Positions 4,894 to 58,350 of a DNA stretch of 64,000 nt are shown here, in pieces (position 1 is the stretch's first letter; each line of letters opens with the position of its first letter). The stretch lies in the IMG/VR virus record IMGVR_UViG_3300045303_000182, positions 45,847-109,846 of that record; one strand, 5' to 3'. This DNA comes from a virus. A program made the position numbers and the translations under genes. Below the pieces are notes generated by a model. The model was not told the origin of the DNA and did no database searches. It was given only the letters and a program-made list of their open reading frames with translations.

Positions 4894-6774
4894 CTATGCG
4901 ACCGGCTGGACTTCGGTCGTGAAGGAGCCACGATCGAACTGGGTGATCTTGATGACGACGAACTCAGCGGGGTACTCCAACGCCACGCCGATCTCCATGC
5001 GGACTTCGCCCGACTGGATGACGGCTGGGGTGTTGATCGTGTCGTCGCAGGTGATGTAGTACGCCTGAGCGGTGTTGGCACCGCGCAGCCCCCCTGCTTC
5101 CCACAGAGGCCGCAGGATGCGTTCTGCGGACATCCGCAGGGCACTCCACAGCCGCTGATCGTTGTTCTCGAAGACGGCGAACTGGGTCGAGCGCTTCACC
5201 ACCTCCTTGATGTAGATGAGCGTCCGACGAGCGGAGACGTAGCGGTCAGCGCCGTACGTCTTGCGGGTGCGGCCACCCATCACGCAGATCCCCGAGCCGA
5301 CCACGGAGCGGACGACGTTGATGTTCTGCGAGTTGAGATCACCGAGCTCAGTGTCGGTGAACTTCGTCTGCACGCCCACGGCGTTGCTGAGTCCTGCGAT
5401 CACACCAGCGGGCGCGCGGAACACGCCGACGGTGGCATCGACGCGCGCCATCATCCCGGCGACCGCCCCGCCCGGAGGCACGTTGATCGTGGTCCCGACC
5501 CGAGCCGGGTTGGGGATGATCAGCCAGGGGCCGTAGGAAGCCGAGTAGCTGTCGCCCGTGTTGGCCCCGAGCGACGTGACGATCTGCGTCTTGTAGACCG
5601 ACGACGACGTGCCGGGGTTCCGCGGAGGAGCCGAGTCGTTGATGATGAAGATGTCCTGCCGGTCCGAGAAGAAGGTCGAGGGGATGGTCGCACCCACCCA
5701 CGACGAGGCGAACTCGGAGGTGTCGGCCTTCGATGCGTCAGCGAGGTAGCCGCAGATGTTGAGGGCGATCGGACCCTCCACCTTGGTGATCATCTCGGCG
5801 GCGTCCTGGAGGTCACCAGCGTCAGGGATCGACGGATCGATACCACCGGCCAGGACCACAGGGTCGTCGGTCGCCATCGGCCGCGGCTGCTGCTCGTTGA
5901 TGCCCGACACCGAGAGGTACAGCGAGCCTGAGGCCGAGTCGTTGATCACCGTGTCGATGCGCCGCGTGCCTGGGATCTCGCCCTTGATCGACAGCGACGG
6001 GAACGTCTCCACGACCTCGTCGTTGCCTTCGCTGTTGCGGATCAGCACTTGCAGGGCGAACACGTCCTCGGCCGTCGCGCCGGCACCGACAGTGCTCTGC
6101 GTGGTGAGGCCGTACTTGAGGCCGTTGCCCCACACGCCGGGAGAGCGAGCCTTCAGCGTGAAGCTGGTGAGGTTGCCCGACCCAGTGTTCTGGCCGTTGA
6201 CAGCGATGGTCGAGGCGGTGCCCTTCTCAGGGGCCGCGGTCGGCGTGGCTCGGATCACCCAGCACAGCCGCCCACCGTTCTGGAAGTACGAGTAGACGCT
6301 GAACGGAAGGTACGAGAGCACCTTGGGCGTGACCGGGATGGCTGCCGGCGTGCCGGGGAAGGCACCGGCCACCCACACACCCGCAGGGGAGTGCGGCGTG
6401 AAGTGGGCCTTGGATCCATCAGCGAGCTTGACGTACTGACCCGCCGTGAAAGCAGCACCGCCGAATGGCGTCTGGTACTTGCCGTCACCGTAGGTGGCAT
6501 GGGCCTTGATGGCGGTGAGGTCAGCGGGGACCGGCGTCGTGACACGGCCGGTCACATCGTTGGGATCAGCCAGCGCAGGCTGCGAGATCGGGTTGAGGCC
6601 ACCGAAGACGGTGACATAGTCACTCCAGGACTCAACGAGGATCGGCTCGTTCACCGGCCCCTTCTCGGCAGCCCCGACGAAGGCACCCACGGTGTAGGTG
6701 CCCGCCACGTCGGACGGGTTGACGAGTAGTGACTCCTCGAGGTAGACGCCTGGACGGCGGTAGTACATGGGCAT
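4894..6774 (-). CDS. Contractile tail sheath protein
   Basis: The 626-residue protein begins MPMYYRRPGVYLEE, the hallmark RPGVYxEE N terminus of phage and contractile-injection-system sheaths. The C-terminal third carries RYVSARRTLIYIKEVVKRSTQFAVFE and later VALEYPAEFVVIKI, both typical of the conserved sheath core that wraps the tube. The middle holds an inserted, variable domain. The ATG is preceded by AGGAG at ideal spacing. It proves myovirus morphology for this genome. The tube gene follows immediately. Confidence 0.93.
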   Translation of the reverse strand: MPMYYRRPGVYLEESLLVNPSDVAGTYTVGAFVGAAEKGPVNEPILVESWSDYVTVFGGLNPISQPALADPNDVTGRVTTPVPADLTAIKAHATYGDGKYQTPFGGAAFTAGQYVKLADGSKAHFTPHSPAGVWVAGAFPGTPAAIPVTPKVLSYLPFSVYSYFQNGGRLCWVIRATPTAAPEKGTASTIAVNGQNTGSGNLTSFTLKARSPGVWGNGLKYGLTTQSTVGAGATAEDVFALQVLIRNSEGNDEVVETFPSLSIKGEIPGTRRIDTVINDSASGSLYLSVSGINEQQPRPMATDDPVVLAGGIDPSIPDAGDLQDAAEMITKVEGPIALNICGYLADASKADTSEFASSWVGATIPSTFFSDRQDIFIINDSAPPRNPGTSSSVYKTQIVTSLGANTGDSYSASYGPWLIIPNPARVGTTINVPPGGAVAGMMARVDATVGVFRAPAGVIAGLSNAVGVQTKFTDTELGDLNSQNINVVRSVVGSGICVMGGRTRKTYGADRYVSARRTLIYIKEVVKRSTQFAVFENNDQRLWSALRMSAERILRPLWEAGGLRGANTAQAYYITCDDTINTPAVIQSGEVRMEIGVALEYPAEFVVIKITQFDRGSFTTEVQPVA

Positions 6775-25730: not shown

Positions 25731-27386
25731 TCACTCGGTCTGTTCGTCAAAGTCTGACCGCTCCGGCGGGTGCGGTCCATAGGCCATCCACTGAAGCTCC
25801 TGAGCCATCGCCGGATCGACCTGCTGGAGCATCGGAACGGGGTTGCCCTCGGCGTCAGCGCCCATCATCGGCTGCCCGTCGGGTGTCATGCCCGTCGCCA
25901 TCATGGTGAAGCTGTTGATCTGGCCGCGGATGAGGTCGAGCGCACCCTGCTGCTTCGTGTCCTCCAGCACCTCTTCGAAGATCTCGCGCATCTTCTGGTC
26001 CGGGAAGGCGTAGCCGAGGTCGCGCAGCGCTCCGCGTCGGGACTCGAGGTTCATCGCCATCATCGCCTGGATCTCGTTGATCTTGATCAGCCGGTCCATC
26101 GGCATCGGGGCGGGCCAGTCCACGTAGGTGCGGTAGCTCGCCGGGTCGTTGGGGTTGAGCTCGGGGTACTGGTCGGGCTTCAACTCCGTCGAGGACAGCA
26201 TCGGGTTGTACACGACGAGGTCCGGGGCGAAGAGGAAGGCGTGCCGGATGATCAACTCGTTGATCTGCTGGAACAGCGGCGTGTACTGGGTCTTCTTGCG
26301 CTCGTACTTGAGCATCAGCGGCTGGTACTGGATCGACAGTGCGACGCCTGATGTGTTACTGATCGGCTGCATCGTGCCGAGCGCCTGAGCCGGGACGCCG
26401 GTCAGTTCGTGCATCGCCTGCTTGAGCAACTCCATGTAGCCGAGCGGACCGGTGAAGTTGGTCTGCAACTCCAACTGGCTGATCTTGGCGTCCTTGTTGT
26501 TGATGGCCCACACCTTGCGTGGACCCTTCTCCAGGTTCGACGCCTTGGCTCCGGTGATCACCGTGACGGGAGCGACGTGGTAGTTGATGATGTCGCTGAT
26601 CTCCGTGGCCTTCTCGTTGTACTCACGGTTGAGCGAGACGAGGTCGGTGATGTCGGCCAGGCCCCACGGCGACGAGGCCACAGGGATGTTGGTGCAGAAG
26701 GCGATCGGGATCGTGCCCAGCGGGTTGGGGCGCGCGTCGATCAGTTCGTCGTTGATGTACTCCTCGATCGTCTCCTCGGTCATGAGCTCGACGTATGTCA
26801 TCACCATGCGCGAGCCGTCCGAGGCCGTGCCCCAGAACTTGTACTTGAGCTTGAAGCGGATGAGGCGCGATCGATCGTGCGGGTGGAACTCCGGGAAGCA
26901 GAAGGCGGGGTTCAGCGGGAGGATGCGGATCTTGCCGTTGTGCGGCACGCCGGCCGGGTCCACGTACGGGTCTTCGAAGGCGACCTTGACGAACACGTCA
27001 CCCGAGACACCACCAAGCTGGCCGATCTCCTGGAGGATCCCCATCTTGTTGTTGTGGACCTCCCACACTTCCTTGAGCGAGTACGGCACGATGGCCGCGG
27101 TCGCCTCGGGGCTGTGGAAGTTGATGCCCTTGCCGAAGCAGAAGTTGCAGATGTAGTCCGCGAACGCGCGCACCCAGTTGAAGACCAACTGCGGCTCGCC
27201 TATCTCACGCTTGTATGCCCAGTGATGGCCGAGGTACCACGCCCAGTTGCTGGCGTACCGGTTCATCCGAGGTCCGTGGACTTCGAACTCCTCGTCGGCA
27301 AGCTCCACCAGACCCAGCGGTGAGATAGCAACGGTGAGGTCGCTGGCAGCGCCTCGGTAGCTGGGTGGGTAGAAGGTGGCTGCCAT
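25731..27386 (-). CDS. Portal protein (SPP1 gp6-like)
   Basis: The 551-residue protein forms the dodecameric DNA gate at one capsid vertex. Features: GQLGGVSGDVFVKVAFEDPY near residue 130, PNPLGTIPIAFCTNIPV (~225), LADITDLVSLNREYNEKATE (~245, the typical 'Dli.lq..lN...s' helix) and ALGTMQPISNTSGVALSIQY (~335, the common 'sg.al...' portal element). The start overlaps the stop of the preceding gene by TGATG. The C-terminal tail is Gln- and acid-rich. Confidence 0.85.
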   Translation of the reverse strand: MAATFYPPSYRGAASDLTVAISPLGLVELADEEFEVHGPRMNRYASNWAWYLGHHWAYKREIGEPQLVFNWVRAFADYICNFCFGKGINFHSPEATAAIVPYSLKEVWEVHNNKMGILQEIGQLGGVSGDVFVKVAFEDPYVDPAGVPHNGKIRILPLNPAFCFPEFHPHDRSRLIRFKLKYKFWGTASDGSRMVMTYVELMTEETIEEYINDELIDARPNPLGTIPIAFCTNIPVASSPWGLADITDLVSLNREYNEKATEISDIINYHVAPVTVITGAKASNLEKGPRKVWAINNKDAKISQLELQTNFTGPLGYMELLKQAMHELTGVPAQALGTMQPISNTSGVALSIQYQPLMLKYERKKTQYTPLFQQINELIIRHAFLFAPDLVVYNPMLSSTELKPDQYPELNPNDPASYRTYVDWPAPMPMDRLIKINEIQAMMAMNLESRRGALRDLGYAFPDQKMREIFEEVLEDTKQQGALDLIRGQINSFTMMATGMTPDGQPMMGADAEGNPVPMLQQVDPAMAQELQWMAYGPHPPERSDFDEQTE

Positions 27387-45798: not shown

Positions 45799-46275
45799 TC
45801 AGGAATCCTCCTCAGCCTGAGCCTCTTCCAGCGCGCGTCGCAGAGCGAGCCGCTCCTCCTCCTCTTCGTGCTCGGCCATCCAGTCCTTGAGCCTCTGGAG
45901 GTTCGCCGGGGTCAGCGGGCCTGCTGGGAAAGCGAGATCAAGCTGATCGAAGGCGAGCACAGGGAACCACGCCCAATCTCTCCCTTCCCATACCCCGATA
46001 CGGTGCGCGGCCTGGTCGTACTTGAGCGTGCCCACCTCGAGGAGCTCAAAGATCCGCAGTGCCTCCTGGATCTCGCGCGACCGATGAGGCTTCATCTCGA
46101 TGTAGTACTTGCCGTCCACGAAGTGGACCGGGAAGCCCTCGGGTTGGCCGAGGGCACCACCGAACTGCTGGGGACTCAGGTGGGGGCTGCGGTGGAGCGC
46201 GGCGCGGTCGCCGCGCTCCCGTAGCTCATCCATCGTCGCCTTGGGGATCTCAACCCAGGACGGATCAACGGTCAT
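45799..46275 (-). CDS. Hypothetical protein
   Basis: A 158-residue protein (PKATMDELRERGDRAALHRS, FVDGKYYIEMKPHRSREIQE) with an acidic coiled-coil C terminus (EHEEEEERLALRRALEEAQA). ATGA overlap with the LPxTG gene. A TACCCCGATA palindrome lies inside the gene. Unknown family. Confidence 0.45.
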   Translation of the reverse strand: MTVDPSWVEIPKATMDELRERGDRAALHRSPHLSPQQFGGALGQPEGFPVHFVDGKYYIEMKPHRSREIQEALRIFELLEVGTLKYDQAAHRIGVWEGRDWAWFPVLAFDQLDLAFPAGPLTPANLQRLKDWMAEHEEEEERLALRRALEEAQAEEDS

Positions 46276-47744
46276 GCCCGCCGGCGCTTCCTCCCTACCG
46301 AGAAGAGGGCGAGGCCCGAGCCGAGGGCGAGGGCAGCAATAGCGAGGTAGGTGCCGCTGTTGCTTCCGGTGGGTGGCAGTCCCTCGGGCGGGGGCGTGAC
46401 CCCTGGCGGGAACGGCCCGTTCGGATTAGCGCAAGTTGCGCTCTCCGGTGGGTAGGTGACGAAGGCCGTAGCCGTCGGGTTGACCGTGTAGGTCAGGTTG
46501 ATGCCGGCGCGGAGGAACTCGTCGCTGGGGTCGCGGATCCAGAAACCATCGCTGGTGAGGATCCAGCCAGGCACGTCAGCGATGGTTCCATCGCTGTTCA
46601 CGGTGGTACCTGGGTACAGCAAGTCCACGGTCGTGCCGGGGGCGTAGACCAGCGGTTGGGTCGAGACGACGTTGCCGTTGATGTCCGACATCGTCAGCGT
46701 CCCAGTGCGACCGGCCAACTCGGGGAACGTGTTCTGGAAGACGATCCTGATCGTCGGAACCTCAGCCACGCAGACTGTCGCCGCGGCTCCGAACGTGAAC
46801 GGTGGGGCTGGCACCGTCGTGGTAGTGGTCCCAGGGATCGTAGGCCCAGTCGTGGTGGTCCCAGGGATGGTGGTGGTGGTCGTTGTGGATGGCGAGGTCG
46901 TCGTCGTCGGCCCAGTCGTAGACGTGGGTGGCACCGTCGTCGTCGTCGGCGGGAGCGTCGTGGTCGTCGGCGGGAGCGTGGTCGTCGTCGTCGTTGATGT
47001 CGTCACCGCCGTGGTCGTAGTGGTAGGTGGGCAGTTCGGTGGGAAGGTCACGGAGGCCGTTGCTGTCTCCGGGCCGAGCGAGTAGATCAGGTTCACGTTC
47101 TGCGTCGTGTTGGGGTAGGCGATCGTCACCGTCTGGTTCGACTGGAAGGTCAGGAACACCGACCCGCCCGTGCTGAACGACAGCACTCCGACCTGACCGT
47201 TGAGGTCAGGCCGATCACCGAAGGTGATCGAGATCTCGGGCAGGAAGTCGGGACCGCAGAAGGCGAACACGTTGACCGCGAACAGGCTCGGCTTCGGAGG
47301 CTGGGTCGTGCTCGTCGTGCTTGTGGATGACGTTGTGGAAGTTGTGGATGACGTACTGGTCGAGGTTGTGGAACTCGAGGTCGTCGTCGTCGGCTTCATC
47401 GTGGTCGTCGTGGTCGGGTACGGCTTGTGGGTCGTCGTGGTCGCTGGCAACGTCGTCGTCGGAGCAACGGTCGTGGTCGTCGTCGGGTAGGTGTGCGGCG
47501 GCTTCTCCGTCGTGGTCGTGTCGTGCTTGTACGTCGTCGTCGTCTCGTACGGCTTGTGGGTGGTGGTCGTCACCTCCCGCGGCTCCGTCGTGGCAGTGGT
47601 CGTCGTGTAGTTCTGCGTCTCGACCTGCACGACTTGCTCGACCGGGGCTTCATCGGGCGGCTGCGGCGACTCTTCGGCCATCACTGCAGGCACTCCACAT
47701 GCCGCTAACACCAGGAGGCCCAGTAGCCCCAGTCGCCTGATCAT
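46272..47744 (-). CDS. Thr-rich LPxTG surface protein
   Basis: A 490-residue exported protein. N terminus: signal peptide MIRRLGLLGLLVLAACG with an apparent lipobox LAAC (Cys16). Residues ~45-150 and ~230-305 are mucin-like Thr/Pro runs (TTTTTVAPTTTLP). Between and after them are two similar beta domains (FAFCGPDFLPEISITF; CVAEVPTIRIVFQN). C terminus: LPPTGS (456-461), a hydrophobic segment, and RKRRRA, a classic sortase anchor. GGGGAG precedes the ATG. It would be displayed on the infected host, possibly glycosylated; superinfection exclusion or surface masking are possible roles (inference). Confidence 0.75.
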   Translation of the reverse strand: MIRRLGLLGLLVLAACGVPAVMAEESPQPPDEAPVEQVVQVETQNYTTTTATTEPREVTTTTHKPYETTTTYKHDTTTTEKPPHTYPTTTTTVAPTTTLPATTTTHKPYPTTTTTMKPTTTTSSSTTSTSTSSTTSTTSSTSTTSTTQPPKPSLFAVNVFAFCGPDFLPEISITFGDRPDLNGQVGVLSFSTGGSVFLTFQSNQTVTIAYPNTTQNVNLIYSLGPETATASVTFPPNCPPTTTTTAVTTSTTTTTTLPPTTTTLPPTTTTVPPTSTTGPTTTTSPSTTTTTTIPGTTTTGPTIPGTTTTTVPAPPFTFGAAATVCVAEVPTIRIVFQNTFPELAGRTGTLTMSDINGNVVSTQPLVYAPGTTVDLLYPGTTVNSDGTIADVPGWILTSDGFWIRDPSDEFLRAGINLTYTVNPTATAFVTYPPESATCANPNGPFPPGVTPPPEGLPPTGSNSGTYLAIAALALGSGLALFSVGRKRRRA

Positions 47745-47747
47745 GTG

Positions 47748-48077
47748 CTACTCCCCTACGTGGACCGTCACCTTGCGAACTGTGTCAGTGAGAGCCTGGA
47801 ACGCTTCCACACTCCGCGCTGGCACTTCGGGGCCGACTGTAGCCGTAAGAGACACACCGGACTGATTCTTGATCTCGACGGTGTCACCCTCGTAGAAGGC
47901 GTCAGCCTCAAGTAGCTCGTTGAGGACGTGGGCCATGAAGTCAGCCCCCATCCGGCTGCCGTCATCGCAGAGCGCTCCGACCCACAAGTTGATAGGAGCG
48001 TCCACGGAGTAGACCCACGCCTCCTGCTTGCCCTCGGGGTCGAACACGCCAATCAGCACTACCTCGTTGTGGTTCAT
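47748..48077 (-). CDS. Hypothetical protein
   Basis: A 109-residue protein (EVVLIGVFDPEGKQEAWVYS, VGALCDDGSRMGADFMAHVL, TVEIKNQSGVSLTATVGPEV). The ATG at 48077 overlaps the deaminase stop (ATGA). Alpha/beta fold likely. Unknown. Confidence 0.5.
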   Translation of the reverse strand: MNHNEVVLIGVFDPEGKQEAWVYSVDAPINLWVGALCDDGSRMGADFMAHVLNELLEADAFYEGDTVEIKNQSGVSLTATVGPEVPARSVEAFQALTDTVRKVTVHVGE

Positions 48078-48478
48078 CGGTACACCACCCGCGTGATCCC
48101 TGCGCCCTGGATCAGCACCGAGCAACCGTGGCACGGCTCCCCGGTCACGTAGATCGTCTTGCCACGCGTCTCACGGCCCGCTCGCATGATCGCGTTGGCC
48201 TCGGCGTGGACAGCGTCACAGCGGCCCGGACCATGGCTGTAGGGAGCCAGCGACGGCACCTCCTCCTTGGAGAGCAGGCCGCGCGAGCAGTCACCGGCCA
48301 GGCACGACCCGGCGTTGGACGCCAACCCGTTGTAGCCGAGGGAGACGATGTCCTTCGTCTCCTCATCGAAGATGATCGCAGCGTGCCTCGCACGACGGCA
48401 GTCGGACCGTGAGTCAGCCAACAGCCGCGCCATCGCCAGCAGCGTCTCGTCCCAGGAAGCGCGAACGTGCTCAGTCAC
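48074..48478 (-). CDS. dCMP deaminase (deoxycytidylate deaminase-like)
   Basis: The 134-residue enzyme should convert dCMP to dUMP for thymidylate synthesis. It has the zinc site of the cytidine/dCMP deaminase family: CDAVHAEANAIM (His and catalytic Glu, ~92) and GEPCHGCSVLI (two Cys, ~114-117), and VSLGYNGLASN, typical of dCMP deaminases. GTG start, coupled by GTGA to the 85-residue gene. It lies in a short operon with LPxTG and other genes rather than with other nucleotide genes. Confidence 0.8.
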   Translation of the reverse strand: MTEHVRASWDETLLAMARLLADSRSDCRRARHAAIIFDEETKDIVSLGYNGLASNAGSCLAGDCSRGLLSKEEVPSLAPYSHGPGRCDAVHAEANAIMRAGRETRGKTIYVTGEPCHGCSVLIQGAGITRVVYR

Positions 48479-50166: not shown

Positions 50167-50601
50167 ATGAGACGCCCCCTGCTGCTCGCCGTTGCGGCCC
50201 TGCTCCTGGCCGGTTGCGACCTCGACTACCCCGCCCTCGGCCTCTACCGCGATGTCACCCCCGGAGGCCAGGAGCAGATCGACCAAGGCTTCGTTGTCGA
50301 TGTCATCACCCCCGTCGATCTCCCCGGCATCTGGCTCGCCGCCCATCGCTCCAGCCACGGCTCGAGTTTCGCCAACCTCGTCAATGCCCGCGTCGGTGAC
50401 CAACTGACCTACGGCGGTGTCAACTACGTCGTCGTCCGCACCGCCATCGTCAACGATGCCTGGACCCCGCGTTACCTCGGCCCTCTCGTCCTGCAGACCT
50501 CCTTGCCGGGAGACGACAACCTCCTCGTCATCTGCGAACCGGCCGGCGCACCACCCCCCGGCACCGCAACCGCCTCCCTCCGCGCCGTCCGACTCCCGTG
50601 A
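50167..50601 (+). CDS. Sortase-like lipoprotein with Ser at the Cys position
   Basis: A 144-residue protein. N terminus: lipoprotein signal with LLAGC (Cys17). Residues ~38-125 follow the sortase fold plan: IDQGFVVDV, GIWLAAHRSSHGSSF (His60 in the catalytic AAHR position, like GHR), GDQLTYGGVNYVVV, then LVLQTSLPGDDN where sortases have TLxTC. Here the catalytic Cys position is Ser112, and the downstream Arg position is Asn118. It may be inactive, redirected to another chemistry, or a binding decoy. An LPxTG protein lies 2.4 kb away. Sortase fold is inference from motifs; only one domain is present. Confidence 0.55.
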   Translation: MRRPLLLAVAALLLAGCDLDYPALGLYRDVTPGGQEQIDQGFVVDVITPVDLPGIWLAAHRSSHGSSFANLVNARVGDQLTYGGVNYVVVRTAIVNDAWTPRYLGPLVLQTSLPGDDNLLVICEPAGAPPPGTATASLRAVRLP

Positions 50602-50693
50602 GGCCCGAAGAGCGCCACGACCTCTACGTCCTGATCATCGGCCTGGTGCTGACGATCGCCCTCGGAGCCGCCGCAGCCCGCTGGATCCCTTAG
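50598..50693 (+). CDS. Very small membrane protein
   Basis: A 31-residue protein (ERHDLYVLIIGLVLTIALGA) with a single transmembrane helix. GTG start overlaps the sortase-like stop (GTGA). Probably a partner of the sortase-like lipoprotein. Confidence limited by length. Confidence 0.4.
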   Translation: MRPEERHDLYVLIIGLVLTIALGAAAARWIP

Positions 50694-51585: not shown

Positions 51586-51678
51586 ATGAGCACTCAGTAC
51601 GCATGGGACACGGCGCTAACGCCATGGGCCGAGCATGGGCTGACCATGGGCCGAACGAGTACGGTCGTGGGATGTTGA
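51586..51678 (+). CDS. Possible leader peptide of the methyltransferase
   Basis: A 30-residue frame (MSTQYAWDTALTPWAEHGLT...). Its stop TGA overlaps the methyltransferase ATG at 51672 closely (ATGTTGA), so it could couple translation to the enzyme. It has no ribosome site. Evidence is weak. Confidence 0.25.
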   Translation: MSTQYAWDTALTPWAEHGLTMGRTSTVVGC

Positions 51679-52814
51679 CGGTGGACCTCTTCGGAGGCGC
51701 AGGTGGTGCAGCCCTTGGGCTGGAGAGGCTTGGACTCAGGCCGTGGTCGTACGAGATCGTGGGGGACTGTGTTCAGACTCTGCGCCGAGCCGGTCACCGC
51801 GCCGTGCAGTGCGACCTGAGCACGTACGCATGGGACGAGGGGTGGCGTGGTGAGGTTGGGGTGCTGCATGGGTCGCCGCCTTGCCAGCCGTGGAGCGCGA
51901 GCGGATCGGGCCGTGGTGCTGCTGACCCACGCGATGGCATGCCGCACATGCTGCGAGCGGTGGAGGCGTTGGAGCCGTGGCTGGTGACCGTGGAGAACGT
52001 GGAGGGGCTGACGTACGCCAAGCACCGGCCGTACCTCGACTGGTTCGTGGAGTCGCTGCGAGCGCTGCGCTACATCGTGGAGTGGCGGGTGCTCAACACG
52101 GCCAACTACGGGGTGCCGCAGACGCGCAAGCGGCTCATCATCGTGGGGCGCATCGGTGGCAGTGTGCGATGGCCCGCACCGACGCACGCCAAGCAGAACG
52201 CCGGCAACGCGCGGACGTGGAAGCCAGGCGACCCCGACGTGCTGCCGCCCGTACTGCTGCCGTGGGTGAGCATGGCCGAGGCGCTCGGTTGGGGGATGAC
52301 CACGAAGCCGATGCTGACGATCGCCTCGGCGCGGACGACCGGTGGCCCTGATGCCCAGGGCGTCGGCGGTAGCCGTGCTCGGGCGGTCCTCGAGGCCGAG
52401 CTAGTCGCCGGTCGGTGGGTGCTGAACACGGGCAACGATTGGAAGCCGGGACAGGATCGGCGCACCGCGCAGAAGCGCTCGCTGCTACGACCGGCACCGA
52501 GTCTCACTGGCAAGTCGGGCGGGCACTGGGTGCTCGACCGACCAGCGACCACGGTGCAGAACGACACACGCGTGCACCCGCCTGGACACCGAGCGAACGC
52601 CGACTACGACGGCCACCCACGGCGCGGCCCGGACGCGTACCGGCTGAGCGTGGCCGAGCTAGCGCGGCTGCAGGACTTCCCCGACGGCTACCCGTTCGTT
52701 GGCACGAAGACGAGCCAGGTGAGGCAGATCGGCAACGCCCTCCCGGCCACCCTGCTGCAGGCGGTAGTGGGAGCGAACCTGTGGCCCCCGCATTGGCCCG
52801 TAGAAGAGCCGTAG
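51672..52814 (+). CDS. Orphan C5 cytosine DNA methyltransferase
   Basis: A ~380-residue enzyme that methylates cytosine C5 in DNA using S-adenosylmethionine. Motif I VDLFGGAGGAALGLERLG, motif IV GSPPCQPW with catalytic Cys71, motif VI VENVEG, motif VIII RKRLIIVGR, and IX/X RLQDFPDGYPF and IGNALP are all present in order. The start is set at the ATG nearest to motif I (51672); the frame extends 23 codons upstream. No restriction enzyme lies nearby, so an anti-restriction role is likely. It sits between the hairpin block and a TATCGGCATA site. Confidence 0.85.
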   Translation: MLTVDLFGGAGGAALGLERLGLRPWSYEIVGDCVQTLRRAGHRAVQCDLSTYAWDEGWRGEVGVLHGSPPCQPWSASGSGRGAADPRDGMPHMLRAVEALEPWLVTVENVEGLTYAKHRPYLDWFVESLRALRYIVEWRVLNTANYGVPQTRKRLIIVGRIGGSVRWPAPTHAKQNAGNARTWKPGDPDVLPPVLLPWVSMAEALGWGMTTKPMLTIASARTTGGPDAQGVGGSRARAVLEAELVAGRWVLNTGNDWKPGQDRRTAQKRSLLRPAPSLTGKSGGHWVLDRPATTVQNDTRVHPPGHRANADYDGHPRRGPDAYRLSVAELARLQDFPDGYPFVGTKTSQVRQIGNALPATLLQAVVGANLWPPHWPVEEP

Positions 52815-52980: not shown

Positions 52981-54687
52981 TCACCACCCGCCGACGTGGT
53001 GGCGCTTGCTGGGCACCCACTCCATCAGTGCCTCGTACTGCACCGACTCTTCGCTCATCGTCACCGGGCGACCGGCGTTCACCGCGTCGCACACGGCAGC
53101 CTTGCGCTCTAGGACGACCCAGCCAGCCGCGTCGAACGTCGCGTCGCCGTCGCTGTAGTGGGCCTGCAGGACGTGCCACGTCACGCGCTCACCGGCAGCG
53201 GCGCGGGCCTTGGTGATGTCATCGACGCGCAGGTTGCGACCGGCCGTCTGAGCAAGGTCGCCCGCCGACCACGGCACCTGCACGTACACCGCGTCCGAGG
53301 CTGCGGTGAGCGTGACGGCCATGCCCGCCGCCTTGACCTGCGCGAGGCACACCTGCGCGTCACCGGCCTGGAACTCTGCGATGGCGTCGGTGCGATCGTC
53401 GCCGGTCACCGAGCCGTTGATCGACACGATGCTGATGCCACGGCCGAGCAGGGCCAGGCTCAGCTTCGTCCACACCGACTTGTGGTCGTAGAACGCGATG
53501 ACCTGCTTGCCCTCAGCGACGAGGTCAGCGATGTAGTCGGCGGCGTACTCGGCCTTGGCGACGCCCGCCTCTTCGCGGAGCATGCCCATCTGGACGACGG
53601 CCTGCGCGCGGCTGACCTTGTCGGCCCACACCGCGCCGCGCTCTTCGGCGCACAGGTTGTAGAAGTCCTTCTCGACCCGCTGGTACCGGCGCATGATGCT
53701 GTCGGGCAGCGTGGCCGGGACGATCGTCCAGCCGCTGTGGGGCAGCACGCCCTCGCCCAGGTCGGCCTTCTCGCGGCGCACGTAGGCCGTGCGGCGCAGG
53801 CAGTCGTGCAGCACCAGCGCGGTGGCCGTGTCGATGCCGGTGAACTTCGTGAACGTGCGCCCGCCCTTGGCACGGCCCTGGACCGGGGCGCAGTAGCGCC
53901 ACTTGTAGCTCGCCAGGCTCGACGCGCCAGGCGTGACGGCCTTGACGAGCGCCTCGCCGCCGACGATCTGCAGCGGGATGAACGCCTCGATCGGGCGGTT
54001 GGTGAGCAGGGTGCCGGTGGCACCGACGATCGGCGTGCCGACCGAGCGGCACCATGCGCCGACGGCGAGCATGACCTTGCTGCGGCCGGTCGGCTTGTCG
54101 CCGTTGCCCTTGTCGCGGTGAATCTCGTCGCGAGCGATCAGCGACGCGGTCTGCACCCAGGCGCTGGCGACGTGGTGCTTCTTGCCGTTGGCACCGACGA
54201 CCTCGTCGGTCAGCCAGGTGCTCATCGTGCGGCTGTCGTCGCTGATGAAGAACACGTCGGCGTCGGGCAGCGGGAGACGCTTGTGGCCCTTGACGATGCA
54301 CAGGCGCAGGTTGGGGAAGCACGCCGCCAACTCGGTGATGTAGCCACCCTCGGCCACCGGAGGGGCGACGATGATGGCGGGGCGACCGGTGGCCGCGATG
54401 CGCTCGGCGGCGAGCGCGAGCAGCACGGCCGTCTTGCCGAGGCCCATGTCGTCACCGACGAGGCAGCCGCCCCAGCGGGCGATCGACGCCTGGGCGTACA
54501 GGTAGGCGCTCGCCTGCCAGGGGTGGAAGGGGCGAGCGAGGCCGGGGATGACGACCGGCGCAGCCGGGGCGAGCGCCTTGCTGGCGGCGAGCCAGGCATC
54601 GTCACCGAGGCCGTGGAACGCCACGACGGGCGTAACGGGCGCAGCGGCCGCAGCGGCTGCGAGTGTGGGGTCAAACAGGTTGGTCAT
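52981..54687 (-). CDS. SNF2-type helicase / DNA translocase
   Basis: A 568-residue SF2 ATPase. Motif I DDMGLGKTAVLLAL (~80), DEIH in RDEIHR (~186), motif III GTPIVGATGTLLTN (~222), motif V/VI TLTAASDAVYVQVPW and QTAGRNLRVDD (~482), with an N-terminal HPWQASAYLYAQ Q-like motif. The layout is that of single-polypeptide Snf2/SMARCAL1-like phage proteins. It may remodel DNA or strip proteins during replication or repair. Minus-strand operon with the shared TTGGTT...GCTAGC promoter and a TATCCT -10. Confidence 0.8.
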   Translation of the reverse strand: MTNLFDPTLAAAAAAAPVTPVVAFHGLGDDAWLAASKALAPAAPVVIPGLARPFHPWQASAYLYAQASIARWGGCLVGDDMGLGKTAVLLALAAERIAATGRPAIIVAPPVAEGGYITELAACFPNLRLCIVKGHKRLPLPDADVFFISDDSRTMSTWLTDEVVGANGKKHHVASAWVQTASLIARDEIHRDKGNGDKPTGRSKVMLAVGAWCRSVGTPIVGATGTLLTNRPIEAFIPLQIVGGEALVKAVTPGASSLASYKWRYCAPVQGRAKGGRTFTKFTGIDTATALVLHDCLRRTAYVRREKADLGEGVLPHSGWTIVPATLPDSIMRRYQRVEKDFYNLCAEERGAVWADKVSRAQAVVQMGMLREEAGVAKAEYAADYIADLVAEGKQVIAFYDHKSVWTKLSLALLGRGISIVSINGSVTGDDRTDAIAEFQAGDAQVCLAQVKAAGMAVTLTAASDAVYVQVPWSAGDLAQTAGRNLRVDDITKARAAAGERVTWHVLQAHYSDGDATFDAAGWVVLERKAAVCDAVNAGRPVTMSEESVQYEALMEWVPSKRHHVGGW

Positions 54688-57261: not shown

Positions 57262-57467
57262 GACTGCGCCGCCGTGAACGCGGCCAGCGCGAGCGCCTCG
57301 ACGCGCTTGGTCAGCTTGCCGTCGCCGCTGTAGGTGAACGTCGGCTCGCCGCCGTCCTCGCCGGGGCGCACGGTGATCGTGCCGAACCAGCCGTGGAACT
57401 GCCCGGACAGGCGCACCACGCCACCGTTCAGGTGGCGGGTGCTGTAGTCGTACTGCAGGCCGCTCAT
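57258..57467 (-). CDS. Small protein, unknown
   Basis: A 69-residue beta-rich protein (SGLQYDYSTRHLNGGVVRLS, GKLTKRVEALALAAFTAAQ). The ATG at 57467 overlaps the Ku-like stop by TGATG. No motif. Confidence 0.5.
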   Translation of the reverse strand: MSGLQYDYSTRHLNGGVVRLSGQFHGWFGTITVRPGEDGGEPTFTYSGDGKLTKRVEALALAAFTAAQS

Positions 57468-58276
57468 CACGCCACCTTGCCCTTCGCAGCCTTGGCCGCA
57501 TCGATGCTCGCCTGCAGGTCGGCCATCAGGTCACCGATGACGGGGACCGCGGGCTTCGCCGGGGCGGGGACGCCCTTGGCCTTGTTGTCCACGAACGCAC
57601 GCACCGCGGGCGCTGTGTCATCGGTGAGCACCGGGGTGCTGGTGCCGACCGCGTCGAGCAGGGCCTCGGCCAGCGCCAACTCGGCGGCGCTGAACTTGAA
57701 GCCGTCGTTCAGGTCACGCGCCTCGCGGACCTGATCGGCCGTGCGGACGTAGGTGAACGAGCCGTCGGCGGCGAGCAGGGCGTAGCGGGCGGGGCCGCGC
57801 AGGGCGACCCGGACGAGGGCGACGACCTTCTTCTTCCGCAGCACGGTGAGCAGCAGCGCGAACGCCTTCTCACCGGCAGCGTCGGCCTTGCCCTTGACGG
57901 CCTTCGGCCGAACCTGCGCCACGTCCTGCGCGGCGTAGTTGCCCACGTCCTTGACGGGGATGAAGGTGACGATGTCACCGACGCCCTTCGGGCAGGTGCA
58001 GTCGGCAATCTCGTCGTCGGTCAGGACGACCCACGCGCCGTTGCTGGCCTCGGCCATGCGGACGACGCGGTCCGACGGGATGACCTCGCCAGTGTCCTTG
58101 CGGATGGGCGAGCGGCCGACGGGGATCGATGCGTCGCCGTCGAGGAACTCGTTGCGGGAGACGCGTGTCTCTTCGGTGCCGGTGTAGACACCGAGCGGGA
58201 TGTTCAGCACGCCGAAGGCGAGCGTGAACGAGTTTGATGCCCGTTGCGGGGCGGGGGCGAGTGCGGTGGTGCTCAT
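57467..58276 (-). CDS. Ku-like DNA-end-binding protein
   Basis: A 269-residue protein. Residues ~15-150 fit the Ku core: FTLAFGVLNIPLGVYTGTEE (is.GL..ip.....at), GRSPIRKDTGEVIPSDRVVR, and SNGAWVVLTDDEI, as in bacterial Ku (yy.v..dG..ev...d.v....... g..vvltdeE). Phage Ku proteins (for example in Omega and Corndog) cooperate with host LigD to circularise genome ends. The remaining part (RKKKVVALVRVALRGPARYA) is also Ku-like. Leads a five-gene operon; shared-type promoter at 58317-58345. Assignment by motif; no ligase seen here. Confidence 0.65.
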   Translation of the reverse strand: MSTTALAPAPQRASNSFTLAFGVLNIPLGVYTGTEETRVSRNEFLDGDASIPVGRSPIRKDTGEVIPSDRVVRMAEASNGAWVVLTDDEIADCTCPKGVGDIVTFIPVKDVGNYAAQDVAQVRPKAVKGKADAAGEKAFALLLTVLRKKKVVALVRVALRGPARYALLAADGSFTYVRTADQVREARDLNDGFKFSAAELALAEALLDAVGTSTPVLTDDTAPAVRAFVDNKAKGVPAPAKPAVPVIGDLMADLQASIDAAKAAKGKVA

Positions 58277-58316
58277 GGGATTCTCCGATTGGTAGGTGTG
58301 GAGTGGAACGGGGATC

Positions 58317-58350
58317 AGGGTATCGAGCGTGCTAGCAGAAACCAACACGC
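58317..58350 (-). promoter_or_regulatory. Shared-type promoter of the Ku operon
   Basis: TTGGTT (58340-58345), 17-base spacer with TGCTAGCA, -10 TACCCT (58317-58322). Leader with CACCTACCA before GGAGA and the ATG. Confidence 0.55.

Follow-up and report, generated by a model that had tools for sequence, protein, structure and literature searches.

The locus studied here raises the question of why a phage would carry a gene for a protein laid out like a bacterial surface protein, with one anchor predicted at each end. The window, by which we mean the whole stretch of 64,000 nt that was analysed, spans bases 45847-109846 of a virus record of 109,846 bases. Its source is a contractile-tailed soil bacteriophage, whose portal protein shares 56.8% identity with the portal of Streptomyces phage BRock and whose tail sheath shares about 34% with the BRock sheath. 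An ORF check of the window returned, at 46272-47744 on the minus strand, a Thr-rich ORF of 490 aa with an ATG start, six bases 5' of which a GGGGAG can be read in the sequence (Table 1). According to the original prediction this chain combines an LAAC lipobox with LPPTG, a helix and RKRRR, which is confirmed, the ORF being exactly the one described. The window gave no tRNA or Rfam matches. Between 52000 and 64000 its GC content rises from about 0.64 to 0.66-0.70, in a region that codes for a helicase at 52981-54687 and for a Ku-like protein at 57467-58348 and is bordered by a DNA methyltransferase gene (51603-52814).

Table 1. Coordinates of the target gene, its parts and its neighbours in the window, and of related or similarly ending genes in other records.
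Feature	Position	Strand	Evidence
Whole gene: phage-encoded lipobox and LPxTG protein, 490 aa	46272..47744	-	sequence; 27 other distinct relatives
Signal peptide and predicted lipobox MIRRLGLLGLLVLAAC, residues 1-16	47697..47744	-	sequence; lipobox regular expression
Thr/Pro-rich stretch 1, about residues 46-150	47295..47609	-	sequence
Beta domain D1, residues 152-242	47019..47291	-	25.9 bits to CTD profile
Thr/Pro-rich stretch 2, residues 243-317	46794..47018	-	sequence
C-terminal Ig-like beta domain (CTD, predicted), residues 318-441; conserved Cys325 and Cys438	46422..46793	-	alignment; AlphaFold2; fold comparisons
LPPTG pentapeptide, residues 456-460	46365..46379	-	sequence; PF00746 and TIGR01167 matches under cut-off
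Membrane helix, about residues 465-483	46296..46352	-	hydropathy; helix in AlphaFold2 model
Basic tail RKRRRA, residues 485-490	46275..46292	-	sequence
Next gene; start overlaps target stop (ATGA)	45799..46275	-	ORF list; Pfam and PHROG scans
dCMP deaminase, adjoins target	48074-48478		
Tail sheath	4894-6768		
Portal	25731-27386		
Sortase-like lipoprotein; His present, LQTS for LxTC, Asn at Arg position	50167..50601	+	
Related sortase-like ORFs	L003 8522-8905; L041 1366-1773 (record of L007, G006; more distant)		
Second secreted family	L008 8117-10156; L010 11428-13455; L029 1978-3966; L014 4430-6580; L064 964-3063; L067 16877-18964		
Transglycosylase-like protein ending SLPVTR, beside target relative in G003	L056 7900-8277	-	PF06737, E 6.1e-29

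The signal peptidase II motif of bacterial lipoproteins consists of a basic n-region, a hydrophobic stretch and [LVI][AST][AGS]C, and the N terminus of the target protein, MIRRLGLLGLLVLAAC, fits such a predicted lipobox (LAAC), both by eye and by this regular expression; PF08139, the lipoprotein-site model, gave no report for the protein at E <= 0.1 in the Pfam scan. At the other end LPPTG, a hydrophobic helix (17-residue hydropathy 2.18) and RKRRRA follow one another as in LPXTG substrates, and from this layout the protein is predicted to work like a substrate of an LPXTG sortase. Its tail scores narrowly below the cut-offs of both curated models, PF00746 (18.0 bits, cut-off 20) and TIGR01167 (15.7 bits, cut-off 15.9), and we therefore do not claim membership in either of them; no PHROG matched the protein. 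D1 scores 25.9 bits against a profile of the CTD, the best of 500 shuffles reaching 9.2 bits, which indicates that the two domains are truly related by homology. The prediction that two Thr/Pro stretches separate two related beta domains thus holds for the parts themselves but not for their order, as only stretch 2 lies between the domains, and stretch 1 precedes D1.

AlphaFold2, run on 28 sequences, modelled the CTD with a pLDDT of about 87-98 per ten-residue block, and the domain is predicted to be an Ig-like beta sandwich. Foldseek comparisons of this model gave a best E of 4.4e-3 with low TM-scores, VIA-align gave a best Z of 7.6, which is within the ordinary range for this tool, and searching solved structures with the CTD sequence returned nothing under E 0.89. 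Since no PDB match stands out, we limit the claim to an Ig-like beta sandwich.

The layout of the target protein is that of LPXTG surface proteins of Actinomycetota, which likewise have a signal peptide, a Pro/Thr-rich stalk and a related Ig-like domain soon followed by an LPxTG-like motif, a helix and a basic tail; it departs from them (as described by PF00746 and TIGR01167) in being phage-encoded, in its added N-terminal lipobox and in those scores just short of the cut-offs. A first scan of bacterial genomes with the CTD yielded 128 candidate stretches and no relatives, which we attribute to limited sensitivity because the CTD profile later matched bacterial proteins, with hits at E <= 1e-6 in 6 of the 396 Actinomycetota genomes sampled and at E <= 1e-4 in three of eight chosen ones. 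Nine of the 12 bacterial CTD loci that we read carry an LPxTG-like motif, a helix and a basic end, two (L123 and L125, of Demequina type) end at YTG without a helix, and one (L124) has no sorting tail. A further domain (KVFVCK...) found in many members of the phage family is represented at 27 bacterial loci, which going by their record titles belong mostly to Actinomycetota and Saccharibacteria. Judged by these sequences, both the CTD and its association with sorting tails are of a bacterial kind, and its occurrence with LPxTG-like tails in actinobacterial surface proteins makes the modules look host-derived. The likeness to surface proteins of Acidimicrobiia that had been proposed is therefore borne out at the level of the phylum, the CTD occurring mostly with LPxTG-like tails in the six of 396 Actinomycetota genomes. 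This match to actinobacterial surface proteins also speaks for cargo that serves the host, namely a captured bacterial adhesin that would aid infected or pseudolysogenic cells rather than act against other phages; against it, no lysogeny gene turned up among the proteins scanned, in what was an unsystematic search for integrases, and we consider this explanation unlikely.

Two scans of viral contigs yielded 13 and 30 loci, one of which was common to both (L004 in the first scan, L019 in the second), giving 31 proteins with that of the window; without the near-copies L023, L028 and L035, 28 distinct members remain, the window included. The 27 further members all come from viral contigs, most of them fragments. 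Among 50,697 records of cultured phages, whole proteins gave no tblastn match with the low-complexity filter on; in BRock itself (bases 1-50000 and 60000-112523) two of 599 scanned ORFs, of 66 and 76 aa, pass a loose test for LPxT near the end, and none of the 599 has a helix-type tail. The architecture of the target is not a matter of chance, because relatives keep it, and the proposal of a phage-encoded protein predicted to be exported and anchored at the surface is well supported at the sequence level, by a virus record with portal and tail sheath genes and by anchor parts that are conserved in relatives. The N terminus is by inspection signal-like, which speaks against a protein without a signal peptide, and the position of the gene outside the structural block speaks against a role confined to the capsid.

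The gene lies on the same strand as the portal gene, about 19 kb upstream of it and outside the structural and tail block. Ig-like domains are common on phage virions, as a fibre or decoration protein of the virion would have them, but the signal peptide, the lipobox, the sorting tail and the distance from the portal gene and the tail block make such a protein very improbable here. Gene neighbourhoods of the family members vary widely, and three large records with a target relative (G014, 93.8 kb; G023, 96.0 kb; G026, 96.6 kb) have no match to the window portal, which suggests that the gene moves between phages, even though these records may be incomplete. Both this variability and the occurrence in phages that lack a related portal suit the reading as an accessory gene. 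We therefore propose, with a probability of about one half, that the target is an accessory (moron-like) gene for a host-imitating surface protein that remodels the surface of the infected cell and most plausibly hinders adsorption or DNA entry of other phages. After Sec export the N terminus would be lipid-anchored and the C terminus either attached by a sortase of the host or retained through its own helix, so that the Thr/Pro stalk and the two Ig-like domains would stand in the cell envelope; the surface thus remodelled would then impede the attachment or DNA injection of competitors. Export, anchoring, timing and the exclusion function are all things that we infer. The suggestions made earlier, of a glycosylated protein that could mask receptors or block superinfection, are likewise conjectural.

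That the remodelling is directed against other phages is our best guess, by analogy with two known systems. Ltp-type phage lipoproteins, known from Streptococcus thermophilus phage TP-J34 (PMC3952083) and, as the Ltp-like gp41, from Cutibacterium phages (PMC11480721), resemble the target in being phage-encoded surface lipoproteins with a possible role in superinfection exclusion. Ltp is described as having two helix-turn-helix repeats (PMC11480721), whereas the target combines beta domains with a Thr stalk and an LPxTG tail; its CTD is modelled as a beta sandwich, and no PHROG or Pfam match pointed to helix-turn-helix repeats. In CwpV of Clostridioides difficile, a cell-wall protein, the C-terminal domain contains repeats and stops phages at a step that follows adsorption (PMC4737114); its gene is a bacterial one of another kind. 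Both systems are likened to the target by role, with no claim of relation in sequence. In the open-licence literature searched, the exact phrase 'phage-encoded sortase' was absent and no relevant title on phage proteins with an LPxT-type tail was found; passages of PMC12617251 contained nothing on phage proteins. Phage-encoded surface lipoproteins are known, but one that copies the wall-anchored plan of its host with both anchors is unusual.

Within the family, the C terminus comes in two kinds. Ten of the 28 members (the window, L002, L003, L007, L009, L018, L020, L025, L031 and L034) have a full tail, in which LPxTG or a close variant of it (LPPAG, IPVTG) is followed by a helix of 17-residue hydropathy 1.81-2.58 and, mostly, by a basic end. 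The other 18 differ from LPXTG surface proteins in lacking helix and basic tail: their maximum hydropathy over the last 60 residues is 0.07-1.36, and they stop exactly one residue after LPxT, strictly as LPxTx in 17 cases and as LVPTE in L026. A lipobox is present in seven of ten full-tail against two of 18 tail-less members (the window and eight others in all), so that lipobox and full tail occur together in seven of the 28, and most members do without the double anchor. This co-occurrence cannot be separated from common descent, the tree containing only two supported independent pairs. The tree, built from the domain without the tail, places 11 of the 18 tail-less members in one supported clade and requires six changes of tail state (5-7 in bootstraps), only two of which are forced by well-supported branches; it shows that the tail type has been exchanged repeatedly within the family. 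Portals 75-82% identical to that of the window likewise go with both kinds, full in G001 and G006 and tail-less in G003, G004, G005, G018, G024 and G028.

A frameshift or readthrough as the source of the missing helix was rejected, because in the three forward frames over 150-240 bases past the stop we saw nothing that would restore helix and basic tail to tail-less members, whether of phages or of bacteria. Two of the 18 (L021 and L026) have a separate small helix-bearing ORF that overlaps or abuts the stop and might be a split-off sorting tail, and a small ORF at the stop of L013 is acidic and weakly hydrophobic. In the tail-less motif itself all 18 members keep Leu, written with five different codons, and all 18 keep Thr, for which each of the four possible codons occurs; Pro is present in 17 of 18 and uses four codons, and the final position varies (R in seven, A in four, E in three, L in two, V and G in one each). 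So many synonymous codons mean that it is the peptide and not the DNA that is under conservation, and selection on the LPxT of the tail-less members can be shown from this pattern. It is hard to reconcile with functionless leftovers of truncated genes. All these ends do occur in proteins with tailed relatives, and one old truncation could have been inherited by much of the set, as the clade of 11 illustrates; given the conserved residues, the diverse codons and the free last position, and given the same end on an unrelated secreted family and a transglycosylase, leftovers are nevertheless the least credible of the explanations considered here.

These further cases emerged from 1845 distinct genes predicted over all phage stretches read, with a gene caller of our own that was trained on the window, missed the members L011 and L021 and may misplace starts. 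In 19 of them the stop comes exactly one residue after LPxT, against about 0.7 expected from the overall LPxT rate; one gene each has zero or two residues in that place. A simple hydropathy rule calls the N terminus signal-like in 18 of the 19, the exception beginning MILLTLILGLAPFGD. Fifteen belong to the target family (of its other tail-less members, two escaped the gene caller and one ends LVPTE), three to an unrelated secreted family and one is the transglycosylase-like protein. The second secreted family consists of Thr-rich proteins of about 700 aa with N-x-G repeats. Three of its members end LPLTC, LPLTC and LPATC, and the other three carry LPATG, LAVSG or LAFTG with a helix. In five of six records its tail type equals that of the target family, L014 being mixed. 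Helix-less ends may exist in bacteria too: the Demequina-type surface proteins L112, L114, L116, L117, L120, L123 and L125 end at YTG without a helix, a possible bacterial parallel.

Some of these phages also carry a sortase-like ORF. That of the window scores 23.7 bits against PF08139, above the cut-off of 20, but only 13.5 bits against PF04203 (cut-off 26.6), and E 0.042 against a class E sortase profile; a profile of the window and L003 pair found weak matches among solved structures (4d70, E 0.005; SrtE1, 5cuw, E 0.058). With class E sortases it shares the HRxxHG region, and in profile searches it matches SrtE1 and a clostridial sortase weakly. It differs from them in having Ser for Cys and Asn at the Arg position, in being very short and a lipoprotein, and in staying under all sortase cut-offs. 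The catalytic His is kept (AHRSSHG aligns with bacterial GHRTTxG), the catalytic Cys is replaced in both the window and L003 ORFs (LQTS), and the Arg is kept in L003 (GGRLLV), with Asn in the window (DDNLLV); the third ORF, in G006, aligns ambiguously. An active phage sortase was rejected because the window and L003 ORFs have Ser in place of the Cys and the third is ambiguous. The AlphaFold2 model of the window ORF is poor (mean pLDDT 47). A 31-aa single-helix ORF at 50598-50693 (+) overlaps the stop of this gene, and the L003 ORF starts within the last codon of the LPPAG-tailed target relative. Across the 31 records, the Pfam sortase profile matched two at E <= 0.01, none above the cut-off, and a two-row profile matched four at E <= 1, of which the match in G005 was judged spurious from its ORFs. 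No close relatives were found in other viral contigs, one search returning only the L003 record, and none in cultured phages.

Together with the LPxT kept in the absence of a membrane tail, the Ser-for-Cys ORFs of the window and L003, and the ambiguous one in G006, would fit a decoy that ties up host sorting and leaves surface proteins, phage receptors among them, undisplayed. Yet the three ORFs occur only in full-tail records, none being found in tail-less ones, and Ser variants exist in bacteria as well: the sortase-like L172 and L175 also have Ser at the catalytic Cys, and L175 has Arg for the His of GHR. Such a decoy is in our view distinctly unlikely, and we retain the accessory surface protein as the preferred reading of the target.

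Ordinary sorting by a sortase does not account for the tail-less members. We suppose that their C-terminal LPxT is still read by an LPxT-recognising partner, either a host sortase or a sortase-like protein, as a substrate or as a decoy. More broadly, and tentatively, since we hold it to be possible but not probable, a helix-less LPxT with one free residue may act in phages of soil actinobacteria as a C-terminal signal on several unrelated exported proteins, one that has repeatedly replaced the LPxTG tail and would be a new minimal sortase substrate or a decoy, full-tail relatives sometimes bringing their own Ser-for-Cys sortase-like lipoprotein. The tail-less end is a more surprising result than the two-anchor target itself. 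If true, it would provide a simple end motif for annotating exported phage proteins, and should host sortases read it, it would act as a signal for sorting or inhibition without membrane retention.
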